DNA of 55,468 nucleotides from positions 1 through 55,468 of the forward strand of contig PABK01000048.1 in assembly GCA_002699145.1 (NCBI GenBank), written 5' to 3'. This DNA comes from Halioglobus sp. (GTDB taxonomy: Bacteria; Pseudomonadota; Gammaproteobacteria; Pseudomonadales; Halieaceae). Below the pieces are notes generated by a model that worked only from the letters and a program-made list of their open reading frames with translations, had not been told where the DNA came from and made no database searches. The translations under genes were made by a program, and so were the position numbers. Each line of letters opens with the position of its first letter. The first letter of the stretch is position 1. Below, piece by piece: positions 7,291 to 12,547 of this stretch.

Positions 7291-8408
7291 TGCCCCCCGG
7301 CGACGGTCAGCGGCGTACCCGGAGTGACACGGTGCACGCCGCTGGCGACAACCAGCGAACCGTCCGGCAGGGTGCCGCGCACGAACGCGCGGTCGGCGCG
7401 TACGTCGACCACTTCCACGGCCTCGCGCACCGCCACCGTGTGCCCGTCCTGCTCAACCAGGCGCAGCACGGTCCAGATGCCGCGCGCGCCCTCCTGCAGC
7501 GCGGACAACGGTATCCAGCCGCCGATCTCGTCAACCCGCTCCTCGAGCACCAGGCTTACGGCCTCGCCGTCCAGCCCCTGGATATTCTCGGGCAGGGCGA
7601 AGACAGCGGTCGTTGCCCGGGTGCGCGGGTTGACGTCGGGACGCACCGACAGCAGCAGCGCATCGACACTGCTGTCGCGCAGACGCAGTGGATAACGCTT
7701 GCCTGGCTCCAGGGCGCTGGCGCGTCGCGCCGCCACGCCGATGTGCGCTTCCCGGGCCGCGGTCTCCACCAGTCTCACCACCGGCTCGCCGGGGGCGACG
7801 ACAGCGCCCTGGTGCACATAGCGGTCGGCGATCACGCCATCGTAGGGTGCCCGCAGGCTGCTCTTTTGCAGATCGATATCGGTGCTTTGCAGCTGCGCGC
7901 TGACCGCCACCACGCCCGCTTCCAGGGCGCGGGCGCGCAGCCGTGTATCGTCGTGGGCTTCCCGCGACACCGCGCCGCTGGCCACCAGGTCGCGCTGCCG
8001 CTCCGCCTTGATATTGGCCAGTTCCAGTTCCGCCCGGGCCTGCTCCAGTTGCGCGGCAATGCTCGCCCGCTGTGCGCGCAGGCTGGACTGGTCCAGGGTG
8101 GCGATGATCTCGCCGGCGCGCACCGGTGTGCCCGGCCGCGGCGGGGCGCTGTCCAGCGTGCCGCTGACCTCGAAGCCGAGGTTGGCCTTGCGTCCGGCGG
8201 CGACCACGCCGAGGTACGAGACCTCGCGGTGGAAGCCGTCGCGCTGTTCGAAGGCGACCGTTTCCACGGGCAGGGGAGGGCGCGGCTGTGGGCCCCCGGA
8301 CAGGGCGACGCGCGCGTACAACAGGCCGGTTGTCACGGTTACTAGCAACACCGCCAGCAGCGCGCCCAGGAGCGTGCCGCGGCGGCGGGATTGGGTTTGG
8401 CTGGTCAC
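7287..8408 (-). CDS. RND efflux periplasmic adaptor (membrane fusion protein)
   Basis: A 373-residue HlyD/AcrA-type adaptor. A membrane anchor lies at about 10-32. It is followed by a lipoyl/barrel-sandwich half (VSYLGVVAAGRKANLGFEVS), an alpha-helical hairpin (about 100-165, rich in QLEQARAELELANIKAERQR), and the returning lipoyl strand SSLRAPYDGVIADRYVHQGA. A beta-barrel and membrane-proximal domain close the protein. It links the inner-membrane pump to an outer-membrane exit duct. It is the first gene of the minus-strand operon, starting at GTG 8408 about 26 bp from a palindromic operator/promoter, and its stop overlaps the pump start by GTGA. Confidence 0.9.
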   Translation of the reverse strand: MTSQTQSRRRGTLLGALLAVLLVTVTTGLLYARVALSGGPQPRPPLPVETVAFEQRDGFHREVSYLGVVAAGRKANLGFEVSGTLDSAPPRPGTPVRAGEIIATLDQSSLRAQRASIAAQLEQARAELELANIKAERQRDLVASGAVSREAHDDTRLRARALEAGVVAVSAQLQSTDIDLQKSSLRAPYDGVIADRYVHQGAVVAPGEPVVRLVETAAREAHIGVAARRASALEPGKRYPLRLRDSSVDALLLSVRPDVNPRTRATTAVFALPENIQGLDGEAVSLVLEERVDEIGGWIPLSALQEGARGIWTVLRLVEQDGHTVAVREAVEVVDVRADRAFVRGTLPDGSLVVASGVHRVTPGTPLTVAGGQ

Positions 8409-8431
8409 TGCTGACCCCGAATGTAAGAAGA

Positions 8432-8469
8432 TATAACATTTATGTTAACTCGTATAACATTGAAGTCAA
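8432..8469 (-). promoter_or_regulatory. Promoter and candidate TetR operator for the RND operon
   Basis: Two direct copies of TATAACATT lie at 8432-8440 and 8453-8461, exactly 21 bp (two helical turns) apart. The first copy also forms the perfect palindrome TAACAT-TT-ATGTTA at 8434-8447. On the minus strand a promoter reads TTGACT (8469-8464), a 16-bp spacer, then TAACAT (8447-8442), so both repeats cover the core promoter. This fits repression and autoregulation by the TetR protein encoded third in the operon; that link is an inference. Confidence 0.7.
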
Positions 8470-8562
8470 GCGCCGCCCGCGAGCGCTTGCACGGCGGGGG
8501 GTATTTGACGCACAATGCGCGCTCCGTCGCGGTCCGTGCCGCGGCGGTCGCTGTGGTGATCC

Positions 8563-8667
<105 letters not shown>

Positions 8668-8766
8668 TTTATCCCGCCGGGCGCGGGCTGTCCGCCGCGC
8701 CGGTTTCTGTCCCCGGGGCGCTGGTGTATCCTAGCCGTCTTGGCACGAATTCAGGCACAACACCGC

Positions 8767-10482
8767 ATGTCCTACCAGGTTCTGGCGCGCAAGTGGCGAC
8801 CGGGAAACTTTCACGAGATGGTCGGCCAGGAGCACGTGCTGCAGGCCCTCGTCAACGCCCTGGACAACGGCCGCCTGCACCACGCCTACCTGTTCACCGG
8901 CACGCGCGGCGTGGGCAAGACCACGATCGCACGCATCCTCGCCAAATGCCTGAACTGTGAGGGCGGTGTCACCTCCCAGCCCTGTGGCAGCTGTTCCTCC
9001 TGCGTGGAGATCGCCGAGGGGCGCAGCGTGGACCTGCTGGAGGTGGACGCCGCCTCGCGCACCAAGGTCGAGGACACCCGCGAACTGCTGGAAAATGTGC
9101 AGTACGCGCCCACCAGCGCGCGCTACAAGGTGTACCTGATCGACGAGGTGCATATGCTCTCCAACCACAGCTTCAACGCGCTGTTGAAGACACTGGAGGA
9201 GCCGCCGCCGCACGTGAAGTTCCTGCTGGCGACCACCGACCCGCACAAGCTGCCGGCGACCGTGTTGTCGCGCTGCCTGCAGTTCAACCTGAAAAACATG
9301 CCGCCGGAACAGGTGGTGGACCACCTGGGCCGTGTGTTGCAGCAGGAGGGCGTGGACTTCGAGGAGCCGGCGCTGTGGCTGCTGGGGCGTGCTGCTGCAG
9401 GCAGCATGCGCGATGCCCTCAGCCTCACCGACCAGGCCATCGCCTTCGGTTCGGGCGCTCTGCGCGAGGCCGACGTGCGCAGCATGTTGGGCAGCGTCGA
9501 CCTGAGTTTCGTCTACCGCCTGCTCGAGGCGGTGGCGGCGGCACAGCCCGGCGATATGCTCGAGGTGGTGGCGCAGATGAATGAACACGGCGTGGACTTC
9601 GCCGGCGCACTGGACGAACTGCTGTCCCTGCTGCACCGTGTGGCCACGGCCCAGGCGGTGCCGCAGGCCATCGACAATCACTGGGGCGACGGCGAGCGCG
9701 TGGCGCAGTTTGCCGCCGGCATCAGCGCCGAGGACGCGCAGTTGTTCTACCAGGTCGCCCTCAACGGCAAGCGCGACCTGGCCCTGGCGCCGGAGCCGCG
9801 CGCCGGTTTCGAGATGACCATGCTGCGCATGGTGGCGTTTCGTCCGCAGGCGGTCATCGATGACTCCCTGGGCCCGGACGACCTGCGGGAAGTCGCCTCC
9901 GCCCCCGCCGCCGCGGAGGGCGGCGCGCCGGTAAAAAAGTCCGTTGAGCCGCCGCCTCCCCCGGTCGCCGAGGCGCCGCGGGAGCAGGGCGGCAAAGTTG
10001 CGGCGGGCGTCCCCGCGGCGGGCGTCCCCGCGGCTGGCGCCCCAGCGGCTGGCGCTGCACCGGCGGCGCTGGATGAACTGGACCGGGACAGCTGGGCGGA
10101 CTTGCTGGAGCAACTGGGCCTGAACGGCATCATCTACAACATCGCCTCGCACTGTTCCCTGGAAGACTGCCGGGACCGGGCGCTGCGTTTTACACTGGAC
10201 GCAGCCAACGCGGCGCTGTTCAACGACGGTCACGGTGAGCAGATTCGCCGTGCCCTGGAGCGGCACTTCGACACGGCCGTAAGCGTGAGTATCGAGCCCG
10301 GCGAGCCCGGCGGCGAGACACCGGCGATGCGCCAGGCGCGGCGCAAACGTGAACGCCAGCGCGAGGCCGAGGACGCCATCGAGGCCGATCCACGCTTACA
10401 GGCGCTGATCGCGCGCTTCGACGGCGAGCTGGATCGCGCCTCCATCGCACCGACAGACACAGCGGTAAAGGAACAATCATGA
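8767..10482 (+). CDS. dnaX: DNA polymerase III subunits tau and (by frameshift) gamma
   Basis: The clamp-loader ATPase. The full-length tau product is 571 residues. Walker A is GTRGVGKT at residues 45-52, followed by a four-Cys zinc module (C-E-G-G then C-G-S-C-S-S-C), Walker B LIDEVHM and sensor regions. A Pro/Ala-rich linker (about 375-440) leads to the C-terminal domain that contacts helicase and polymerase. ATG 8767 gives the conserved [12 protein letters not shown] start. Codons 389-391 (GTA AAA AAG) hold an A AAA AAG slippery heptamer with an upstream purine-rich Shine-Dalgarno-like stretch. A -1 shift would end after two more residues, giving a 393-residue gamma. First gene of a coupled dnaX-ybaB-recR-rnd-ycgL-ycgN run; the stop overlaps ybaB by ATGA. 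Confidence 0.97.
9915..9947 (+). promoter_or_regulatory. Programmed -1 ribosomal frameshift cassette in dnaX
   Basis: The slippery heptamer A AAA AAG at 9933-9939 is in the correct register (GTA AAA AAG). An internal Shine-Dalgarno-like GGAGGG lies at 9915-9920, 12 nt upstream. After a -1 slip the ribosome reads GTC CGT and then stops at TGA 9945-9947. A GC-rich stem (CGCCTC 9953-9958 with GAGGCG 9970-9975) lies downstream. All three elements match the E. coli dnaX design, in which the same heptamer, an upstream AGGGAG and a downstream hairpin produce gamma. Confidence 0.8.
10000..10059 (+). repeat. Four 15-bp tandem repeats in the tau linker
   Basis: Four in-frame units begin at 10000, 10015, 10030 and 10045. 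The first two are identical (GCGGCGGGCGTCCCC) and the last two have drifted. They encode [20 protein letters not shown] in the flexible linker of tau, just downstream of the gamma stop, so only tau carries them. Copy number could vary between strains without breaking the frame. Confidence 0.9.
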
Positions 10483-10802
10483 AGGGAAAACTGTCCGACC
10501 TGATGCAGCAGGCGCAGAAAATGCAGGCCGATATGCAGAAGGCCCAGGAGGAACTGGCCAATGCCGAGGTGGTGGGAGAGTCCGGCGCCGGCATGGTCAG
10601 CGTGGTCATGACCGGGCGCCACGACGTCAAGCGCGTGAGCATCGACGACGCGGTCATGGGTGAGGACAAGGAGGTGCTGGAGGACCTGCTGGCCGCGGCA
10701 GTCAACGACGCGGTGCGCAAGGTCGAGGCGCACAACCGCGACGCCATGGCCGACTTCGCCTCCGGCATCAACCTGCCACCCGGCTTCAAGATGCCGTTCT
10801 AG
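10479..10802 (+). CDS. ybaB: YbaB/EbfC family nucleoid-associated protein
   Basis: A 107-residue small DNA-binding protein of the YbaB/EbfC family, which forms tweezer-like dimers on DNA. The start [25 protein letters not shown] is the family's first amphipathic helix. It is followed by a short sheet ([19 protein letters not shown]) and a C-terminal helix ending in the usual Gly/Pro-rich tail [10 protein letters not shown]. The ATG at 10479 overlaps the dnaX stop by ATGA. The dnaX-ybaB-recR order is widely conserved. Confidence 0.95.
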
Positions 10803-10813
10803 GCTGCCTGCCG

Positions 10814-11413
10814 ATGGCCTTCAGTCCCTCATTGCAAAACCTGGTCGACGCACTGCGTTGCCTGCCCGGCGTCGGGCCCAAGTCTGCGCAACGCATGACG
10901 CTGCACCTGCTCGAGCGCGACCGCGAGGGGGCCGTGGCCCTGGCCGACGCGCTGCGCGAGGCGGTGGACAAGGTGGGACACTGCACGCGCTGCCGCAATT
11001 TCACGGAACTGGAGGTGTGCGAGATCTGCGCCGACCCGAAACGCGACGCCGCCACGGTGTGCGTGGTGGAGACGCCGGCGGACGTCGTCGCGGTCGAGCA
11101 GAGCGCCGGTTTTCGCGGCCTGTACTTCGTGCTCATGGGTCACCTCTCGCCCATCGACGGTATCGGCCCCGCCGAGATCGGCCTGGAACAGTTCCACCAG
11201 CGCGTCATCGACGAGGGCATCCAGGAAGTGATCCTGGCCACCAATCCCACGGTGGAGGGCGAGGCGACCGCCTACTACCTGACCGAAATGCTGCAGGGCG
11301 TGGGCGTCAGTGTGTCGCGAATCGCGCACGGCGTACCGCTGGGCGGAGAACTGGAATATGTCGATGGCTCGACCCTTGCACACGCCCTGGCCGGCCGCCG
11401 GCCGCTGGACTGA
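10814..11413 (+). CDS. recR: Recombination mediator protein RecR
   Basis: A 199-residue RecR, the usual length. An N-terminal helix-hairpin-helix ([15 protein letters not shown]) is followed by the four-Cys zinc finger C-T-R-C then C-E-I-C. A Toprim domain follows ([14 protein letters not shown], then [18 protein letters not shown]). With RecO and RecF it loads RecA at gapped DNA. It starts 11 bp after ybaB and ends 3 bp before rnd. Confidence 0.97.
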
Positions 11414-11416
11414 TCG

Positions 11417-12547
11417 ATGAGCTGGCAACTGATCCAGTCGGACGAGGCGCTGGCGCCGCTGCTGCAGCAGGCGCGGCAGGGCGGCGCGGTGATCCTGGAC
11501 ACCGAGTTCATGCGCCGCAACACCTTCTATCCCCAGGTGGCGCTGCTGCAACTGTGTTTCGAGGGCGCCCCGGGCGGTGGCGACACGGCCTGGCTGGTCG
11601 ATCCGCTGGCCATACAGGACACTGCGCCCATCGCCGCGCTGCTCGAGGACCGTGCGGTCACCAAGGTGCTGCACTCGGCGAGCGAGGACCTGGAGGTCTT
11701 CCAGCGCTGGCTGGGCGTATTGCCGCAGCCGCTGTTCGATACCCAGCGCGCCGCGGCCCTGGTCGATATCGGCTTCGGCATGGGTTATCGGGCGCTGGTG
11801 CAGGCGATCAGCGGTATCGACCTGCCGAAGGGGGAAACCCGCTCCAACTGGTTGCAGCGCCCGTTGACGCAGGCGCAGTGCGATTACGCCGCCCAGGACG
11901 TGATCTGCCTGCTGCCGGTGTGGCGCGAATTGCTGCGGCGCTGCGAGGCGAACGAGCGGCTGGACTGGTTGCTGGCCGACGGCGAGGATGTGCTGGCGGC
12001 GGCGCGCGCCGCAGGCGACGATTACCACACGCGTATCAAGGGCGCCTGGAAGCTGGACCGGCGGCAGCTGGCCGCACTGGCCGAGGTGTGCCGCTGGCGC
12101 GAGCAGACGGCGCGTACGCGCGACAAGCCGCGCGGCTGGATCATCGACGATCGCGCCTGCCTGGAGATCGCACGGCGCAGCCCGCGCGACCAGCGGGCGC
12201 TGCAGGGCATCGACCTGCCCGCCCCGGTGCTGCGCCGGCACGGTCGGGACATCCTCGAGGTGCTCGCGGCGACACGTGAACTGCCCGACGACGCGTTGCC
12301 GCAGCGCCTGCCGCAGCCGCTGGACGCAGCGCAGCGCGACCAGCTCAAACGCCTCAAATCCAGCGGCCGGGCGCTGGCCGAAACCCTGGCGCTGGCGCCG
12401 GAGATCCTGCTGCCGGGCAAGGACTACGAGTTGCTGGTGCGCGAGCACGCGGGCGAGGCGATCACCCTCCCGCCGCACTGGCAGGGCTGGCGCGCCGACG
12501 CAGTGCTGCGGCCATTGCGCGCGAGCCTGCAGGGCGCGGCGCCATGA
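11417..12547 (+). CDS. rnd: Ribonuclease D
   Basis: A 376-residue 3'-5' exoribonuclease of the DEDD family that trims tRNA and other small-RNA precursors. The first exonuclease motif is VILDTEFMRRNTFYPQVALLQ, with Asp and Glu metal ligands. VLHSASEDLEVF carries the second motif and YAAQDVICL the third. A central HRDC domain (about 208-290, LAEVCRWREQTAR) binds RNA. Its stop overlaps ycgL by ATGA. Confidence 0.95.
   Translation: MSWQLIQSDEALAPLLQQARQGGAVILDTEFMRRNTFYPQVALLQLCFEGAPGGGDTAWLVDPLAIQDTAPIAALLEDRAVTKVLHSASEDLEVFQRWLGVLPQPLFDTQRAAALVDIGFGMGYRALVQAISGIDLPKGETRSNWLQRPLTQAQCDYAAQDVICLLPVWRELLRRCEANERLDWLLADGEDVLAAARAAGDDYHTRIKGAWKLDRRQLAALAEVCRWREQTARTRDKPRGWIIDDRACLEIARRSPRDQRALQGIDLPAPVLRRHGRDILEVLAATRELPDDALPQRLPQPLDAAQRDQLKRLKSSGRALAETLALAPEILLPGKDYELLVREHAGEAITLPPHWQGWRADAVLRPLRASLQGAAP

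Follow-up and report, generated by a model that had tools for sequence, protein, structure and literature searches.

A probable −1 ribosomal frameshift signal in dnaX of Halieaceae, with covarying hairpins on both sides of the slip site

The dnaX gene of a Halioglobus species very probably carries a programmed −1 ribosomal frameshift signal that would give a 393-residue gamma protein. As judged by comparison with dnaX genes of related bacteria, the slippery heptamer, the distance to a Shine–Dalgarno (SD)-like motif, the early stop and two flanking hairpins are under nucleotide-level selection; the slip, its efficiency and the gamma product are predictions from these elements. Frameshifting in dnaX as such is well known, and the gene described here adds a variant layout of the stimulators, with two covarying hairpins flanking the putative slip site as the new element. 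The whole marine family retains the signal, which is under strong selection at the nucleotide level; one genus has cleanly lost it.

The dnaX gene and its predicted products

The window analysed is a stretch of 55,468 nucleotides from Halioglobus sp. (GenBank assembly GCA_002699145.1, contig PABK01000048.1), in which dnaX lies among the following features.

8563–8659: SRP RNA (68.6 bits), immediately 5' of dnaX
8767–10482, + strand: dnaX, tau reading frame, 571 aa (NCBIfam PRK07994, 781.2 bits; dnaX_nterm, 435.8 bits; Pfam domains)
8767–9947, + strand: predicted gamma, 393 aa (−1 shift at 9933–9939, stop TGA at 9945–9947; product predicted from sequence)
10479–10802: ybaB, 3' of dnaX
10814–11413: recR, 3' of ybaB

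The nearest named relatives of the window dnaX are Halioglobus, Pseudohalioglobus and other Halieaceae. Pfam matches assign residues 233–357 to clamp-loader domain III and residues 438–560 to tau domain V. Counted from the ATG at 8767, the predicted gamma comprises 391 + 2 = 393 residues with Val-Arg (VR) at its C-terminus. Its end falls past the domain III match (to 357) and ahead of the domain V match (from 438), and these limits agree with the preliminary description, which had gamma ending after the clamp-loader domains. An open frame of 511 aa runs antisense over dnaX (8731–10266, − strand) and is probably a by-product of GC-rich codon use.

The frameshift signal in the window

The putative signal consists of the following elements.

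9909–9925, + strand: 5' hairpin CGCCGC-[GGAGG]-GCGGCG with the SD-like motif in its loop (from comparative covariation)
9915–9920, + strand: GGAGGG, SD-like stimulator (GGAGG at 9915–9919, 13 nt 5' of the heptamer)
9933–9939, + strand: slippery heptamer A_AAA_AAG (codons 389–391, GTA AAA AAG), in the phase that permits tandem tRNA-Lys slippage
9945–9947, + strand: −1-frame stop TGA, two codons past the heptamer (the −1 frame reads AAA AAA GTC CGT TGA)
9948–9993, + strand: 3' stem-loop, starting 8 nt past the heptamer (from the fold of 9940–9995 and cross-genus covariation)

The in-frame heptamer, the GGAGGG placed 12 nt upstream (13 nt if counted from GGAGG) and the −1-frame TGA after two codons had all been pointed out in the preliminary description, and each is present at these positions; the possible 5' hairpin with GGAGG in its loop was no part of that description. 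The GC-rich stem that it located downstream is borne out as a fold: the segment 9940–9995 reaches −33.6 kcal/mol (z −2.2; 5 of 200 shuffles were equally good), within the best 6% of control positions of the gene. A 44-nt stretch clipped the stem (z +1.0), and this 56-nt stretch was used instead. At the 5' hairpin, the local 24-nt fold has −12.0 kcal/mol, among the best 3% of such segments in the gene. The energy of both hairpins together (9903–9996, 94 nt) is unexceptional (z −0.73; 47 of 200 shuffles as good), and the 5' hairpin is present in the minimum-energy fold of this stretch and absent from its centroid. The case for the putative 5' hairpin in the window is built on comparison across genes and not on fold energy.

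The heptamer on its own is weak evidence, because AAAAAAG is present five times on the two strands of the window, against 0.74 expected. Given Val-Lys-Lys, the codons GTA AAA AAG have a probability of 1.3% under the synonymous codon use of the window dnaX.

Conservation within the family and beyond

Genes for dnaX were gathered from the genus, family, order and class of the window organism. The genus set holds 15 genes from 18 genomes, three of which had no dnaX match at the cut-off. The family set of 88 derives from 100 genomes, 10 of them without a match; two genomes with dnaX broken out of frame (G289 and G315) and one with the gene at a contig end (G351) were excluded, and G003 was added. 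Only frame-matched heptamers past codon 340 were counted. The heptamer is kept in 79 of the 88 family genes (one of the other nine, L156, ends at codon 391). Conservation in close relatives, on which the preliminary description had made its reading depend, was found in the genus, where all 15 genes have the heptamer and 14 of them a −1 stop within two codons.

In 79 of 79 heptamer genes, the A run numbers exactly six nucleotides, for a synonymous expectation of 3.3% on average. A −1 stop lies at most two codons past the heptamer in 75 of the 79, compared with 8.6% of 19,930 positions taken from these genes as controls; the exceptions L009, L111, L145 and L146 have it after 4, 6, 20 and 5 codons, respectively. 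GGAGG stands exactly 13 nt 5' of the heptamer in 46/79 family genes (163/44,721 control positions), and an SD core of any kind precedes it in 77/79 (12.5% of control positions).

The same heptamer could be conserved for the protein, as a Lys-Lys motif of the linker, without any frameshift. The two lysines are by definition kept wherever the heptamer is present and the peptide ahead of it is similar in many relatives, but the residue preceding Lys-Lys varies over the 79 genes (V 33, A 31, G 7, P 4, L 2, T 1, R 1) even though its codon must end in A. Likewise, the base required for the −1 stop is present while the residues vary: the 36 genes that stop after two codons encode ten kinds of residue at codon +2. 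Lys-Lys occurs elsewhere in the 88 genes six times, never as A_AAA_AAG, and hairpins with the SD motif in the loop score above synonymous shuffles (14.07 compared with a mean of 9.78, sd 0.47; see below). A purely protein-level motif is hardly credible on these grounds.

On a quickly built tree of 92 clamp-loader proteins (86 from the family and 6 others, without the short sequences L156 and L168), three changes suffice for the distribution of the heptamer. It is missing in all seven readable dnaX genes of genus g122 (L159–L165; the eighth, L156, is cut short) and in the single gene of genus g120 (L187), and the signal is therefore dispensable within the family. In g122, GAG AAA AAG in L062/L165 is a possible remnant of the heptamer. 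Genera with and without the signal make up natural pairs in which the purpose of gamma could be addressed. The loss in one genus would also suit a signal that works very weakly, with gamma as a functionless trace product, as would the lower −1 shifting seen in vitro with stable upstream hairpins (PMC6321510, in excerpt). However, the heptamer is retained over nearly the whole family tree and selection bears on several separate elements, so that we consider this reading unlikely.

Outside the family but in the same order, 35 of 56 dnaX genes contain the heptamer, in five cases as the end of an A10 run. Forty genes were picked from 110 matches outside the order (one is cut short); the heptamer occurs in one of them, G477, which belongs to the order of E. 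coli. E. coli and the order around G579 have it in 24 of 31 loci; this order of E. coli relatives is taken to be Enterobacterales, from an identity to E. coli DnaX of up to 91%. A class-wide trait is ruled out by the one gene in 40, and these counts, set beside the 79 of 88, describe a signal that is patchy across the class and retained in the family.

In the two excluded genes with a broken frame (L208 of G289 and L209 of G315, from genomes of 4 and 1 contigs), the break lies in the clamp-loader part, and both the heptamer and a GGAGG ahead of it are still present in the piece downstream; the break may be a sequencing error or real.

A hairpin around the Shine–Dalgarno motif

In the 46 genes whose GGAGG stands at 13 nt, the 5' hairpin was scored as the best hairpin holding GGAGG in its loop (5-nt core, loop of up to 12). 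Stems reach at least 4 bp in 43 of the 46 genes and at least 5 bp in 32, with widely differing sequences: CGCCGC/GCGGCG in the window, CGCTGT/ACAGCG in L004, GGCTGC/GCAGCC in L130 and GATCGTCGC/GCGACGATC in L014. With 3' flanks swapped across genera, the mean score drops from 14.07 to 11.72, and 0 of 300 swaps were as good on average. When one gene per genus was kept (17 genes), the score was 13.41 compared with 11.42 after swapping (1 in 1000 as good). The best of 200 synonymous shuffles scored 10.93. GGAGG occurs in these genes at 194 further sites, which score 8.0, with 19% reaching at least 5 bp. Stems of 5 bp form in 70% of true flank pairs and in 47% of swapped ones, so shared GC-rich stems account for part of the signal.

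A flank-swap scan from −150 to +102 nt relative to the heptamer (6-nt steps, a span of about 250 nt) gave two peaks. The first is centred on the SD motif (z 5.7, up to 7.0 in a fine scan, and 3.0–4.0 with one gene per genus), and the second, at +30, corresponds to the 3' hairpin (z 5.2, and 4.1 with one gene per genus). All offsets outside the two peaks have z between −3.6 and +3.0, and the value of +3.0, at −120, drops to 0.2 with one gene per genus. The 5' signal was also seen in the 11 other family genes (z 3.4 at −18).

With a looser score (4-nt core, loop of up to 14), 21 of 37 SD-core genes in the set from the window's order have at least 4 bp, a raw count with no chance level attached. 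By the same score, and likewise with no chance level, 0 of 10 SD-core genes in the order of E. coli reach 4 bp; the 5' signal is also absent in the 22 genes of genus g17. A 5' SD hairpin as a universal part of dnaX signals is ruled out by these two groups. In E. coli dnaX, a 5-bp stem closing a longer loop is possible; by eye, this stem is not intact in L300–L304.

Within the family, the 5' hairpin has the appearance of a genuine, conserved RNA element. We know of no described case in which the SD motif itself lies in a hairpin loop 13 nt from the slip site. Titles and abstract beginnings, from a coverage that leaves out most subscription journals, contained no SD-loop hairpin at a frameshift site.

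The downstream stem-loop across relatives

In genus g14 (7 genes), both sides have changed in one or more genes at 7 of the 10 consensus pairs of the 3' stem; individual pairs are broken in as many as 3 of the 7 genes, and the covariation term equals 0. In genus g17, the 3' hairpin has 8 bp, and just two of its pairs show changes, all of them one-sided. An RNAalifold alignment of the window's genus gave no pairs of a common 3' fold. The 3' fold ranks within the best tenth of its own gene at 6 of 15 genus sites and 28 of 78 family sites.

The g17 genes have a layout of their own, with a near-invariant compact hairpin (CCACCGG..CCGGTGG) 6 nt past the heptamer, a weaker SD motif and no 5' hairpin signal (L169, L170, L172, L174, L176–L180, L182–L186 and L188–L195). 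This is another layout of the same putative frameshift cassette.

Decoding of the slip site and proposed mechanism

A single tRNA-Lys, with anticodon UUU, was found in the window organism among 31 typed of 37 tRNA matches; five of the six untyped matches are 81–87 nt long and one scores 37 bits. The UUU pattern is present in 18 of 19 genomes and the CUU pattern in 0 of 19, and the idea that a second tRNA-Lys (CUU) brought about the loss of the heptamer is not supported. The E. coli site is described as prone to shifting owing to weak pairing of the only tRNA-Lys with the second codon (PMC5009743, in excerpt). Two patterns for the 3' end of the 16S rRNA gave no hit in the assembly, and the anti-SD sequence is therefore assumed.

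We propose that a ribosome decoding GTA AAA AAG would have tRNA-Lys(UUU) on both lysine codons, while GGAGG would pair upstream with the anti-SD of its 16S rRNA and the stem-loop would stand ahead of it. A fraction of the ribosomes would then move back by one base, from AAA AAG to AAA AAA, add Val-Arg and terminate at TGA, producing gamma (domains I–III) alongside the 571-residue tau. Distances between the SD motif and the site of −1 shifts are given as 9–14 nt (PMC5009743) and as 8–11 nt (PMC6321510, in excerpt); the GGAGG at 13 nt falls inside the first range and outside the second.

An identical protein would result if RNA polymerase, aided by the nascent 5' hairpin, added one A on the run of six and the transcript were translated in the standard way. 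Such stimulation is known from a Roseiflexus insertion sequence, where a hairpin just 5' of the slippery run promotes slippage of RNA polymerase (PMC5009743, in excerpt), and runs of A9–A10 occur in the same part of other dnaX genes. Polymerase slippage would, however, favour longer runs than the invariable six; the sole copy is always in the A_AAA_AAG phase in the 15 genus genes, for which all frames were listed; that model assigns no function to GGAGG at a constant spacing; and the 5' hairpin of the window ends 7 nt ahead of the A run, whereas the Roseiflexus hairpin lies next to its own slippery run. The fixed A6, the fixed phase, an SD distance within 9–14 nt and the single tRNA-Lys UUU favour slippage on the ribosome, and a transcriptional origin of gamma appears very unlikely.

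With the ribosome on the heptamer, the 3' arm of the 5' hairpin would sit within the mRNA channel, and the hairpin would therefore be open when the heptamer occupies the P and A sites. On this geometry, it may keep free 30S subunits away from the strong internal SD and open only for a translating ribosome; this masking of the SD between ribosomes is the role that we favour as the most likely one. The opposite effect, in which the hairpin lowers −1 shifting, is possible by analogy with a 70S system in which stable upstream hairpins reduced it (PMC6321510, in excerpt). For Halieaceae we tentatively suggest, without putting it ahead of its negation, that the covarying 5' hairpin makes the internal SD in its loop self-masking, so that only elongating ribosomes open it and the cassette could act without attracting free 30S subunits, or that the gamma:tau ratio is tuned by hairpin stability (temperature, salt, ribosome spacing). 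A hairpin around an internal SD would constitute a new stimulator layout that can be tested.

Comparison with known dnaX systems

The signal of E. coli dnaX (Rfam RF00382) resembles that of the window in its A_AAA_AAG in the same phase, an upstream internal SD, a downstream stem-loop, a −1 TGA at most two codons on and a short product that ends between domain III and tau domain V. The two differ in the distance of the SD (GGAGG at 13 nt in the window, GGAG at 10 nt in E. coli), in the SD within a hairpin loop (found in the window but not in the 10 genes of the E. coli order), in the sequence and position of the 3' stem (8 nt past the heptamer compared with 5 nt) and in the residues after the slip site (two, VR, compared with one). 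The Rfam model RF00382 has no match at E ≤ 1 in 8000–11500, whereas the E. coli K-12 control scores 96.8 bits. The label 'E. coli-style' given earlier thus fits the heptamer, the early stop and the two kinds of stimulator, and needs qualifying for the SD distance, the SD in a hairpin loop and the RF00382 match.

According to the excerpts of the following sources, dnaX frameshifting occurs in E. coli and many bacteria (PMC4066793), and a frameshift logo covers nine genera, including Escherichia, Salmonella, Neisseria, Vibrio and five others (PMC3711429). A 2012 review, in its excerpt, reports similar dnaX frameshift sequences among all enterobacteria, with most other bacteria lacking them and perhaps making no gamma (PMC3290774). 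Titles and abstract beginnings yielded nothing on dnaX frameshifting in Halieaceae. Another type is the proteolytic gamma of Caulobacter, which a protease cuts from tau (PMC5009743, in excerpt). Hairpins 5' of a slippery run are shared with the frameshift sites of PMC6321510 and with the nascent-RNA hairpin of the Roseiflexus element (PMC5009743), but, compared with the excerpts of both papers, the window differs in that its loop carries the SD motif itself, at 13 nt from the site.

An A run also yields two products from the single dnaX gene of Thermus thermophilus (PMC5009743 and PMC3711429, in excerpt). That run has nine A, whereas the heptamer genes of the window's family have exactly six followed by G, with an SD and a fixed phase. 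Slippage of the Thermus type (A run of about nine or more) was rejected for these genes, the run being six in 79/79. Among 221 distinct dnaX genes, 13 runs of A9 or A10 were seen, all at codons 359–472 (L021, L093, L215, L223, L224, L225, L264, L268, L280, L285, L293, L296 and L298), with stops within nine codons in both shifted frames; at least five of these genes are from the window's order. They are candidates for Thermus-like transcriptional slippage in other gammaproteobacteria.
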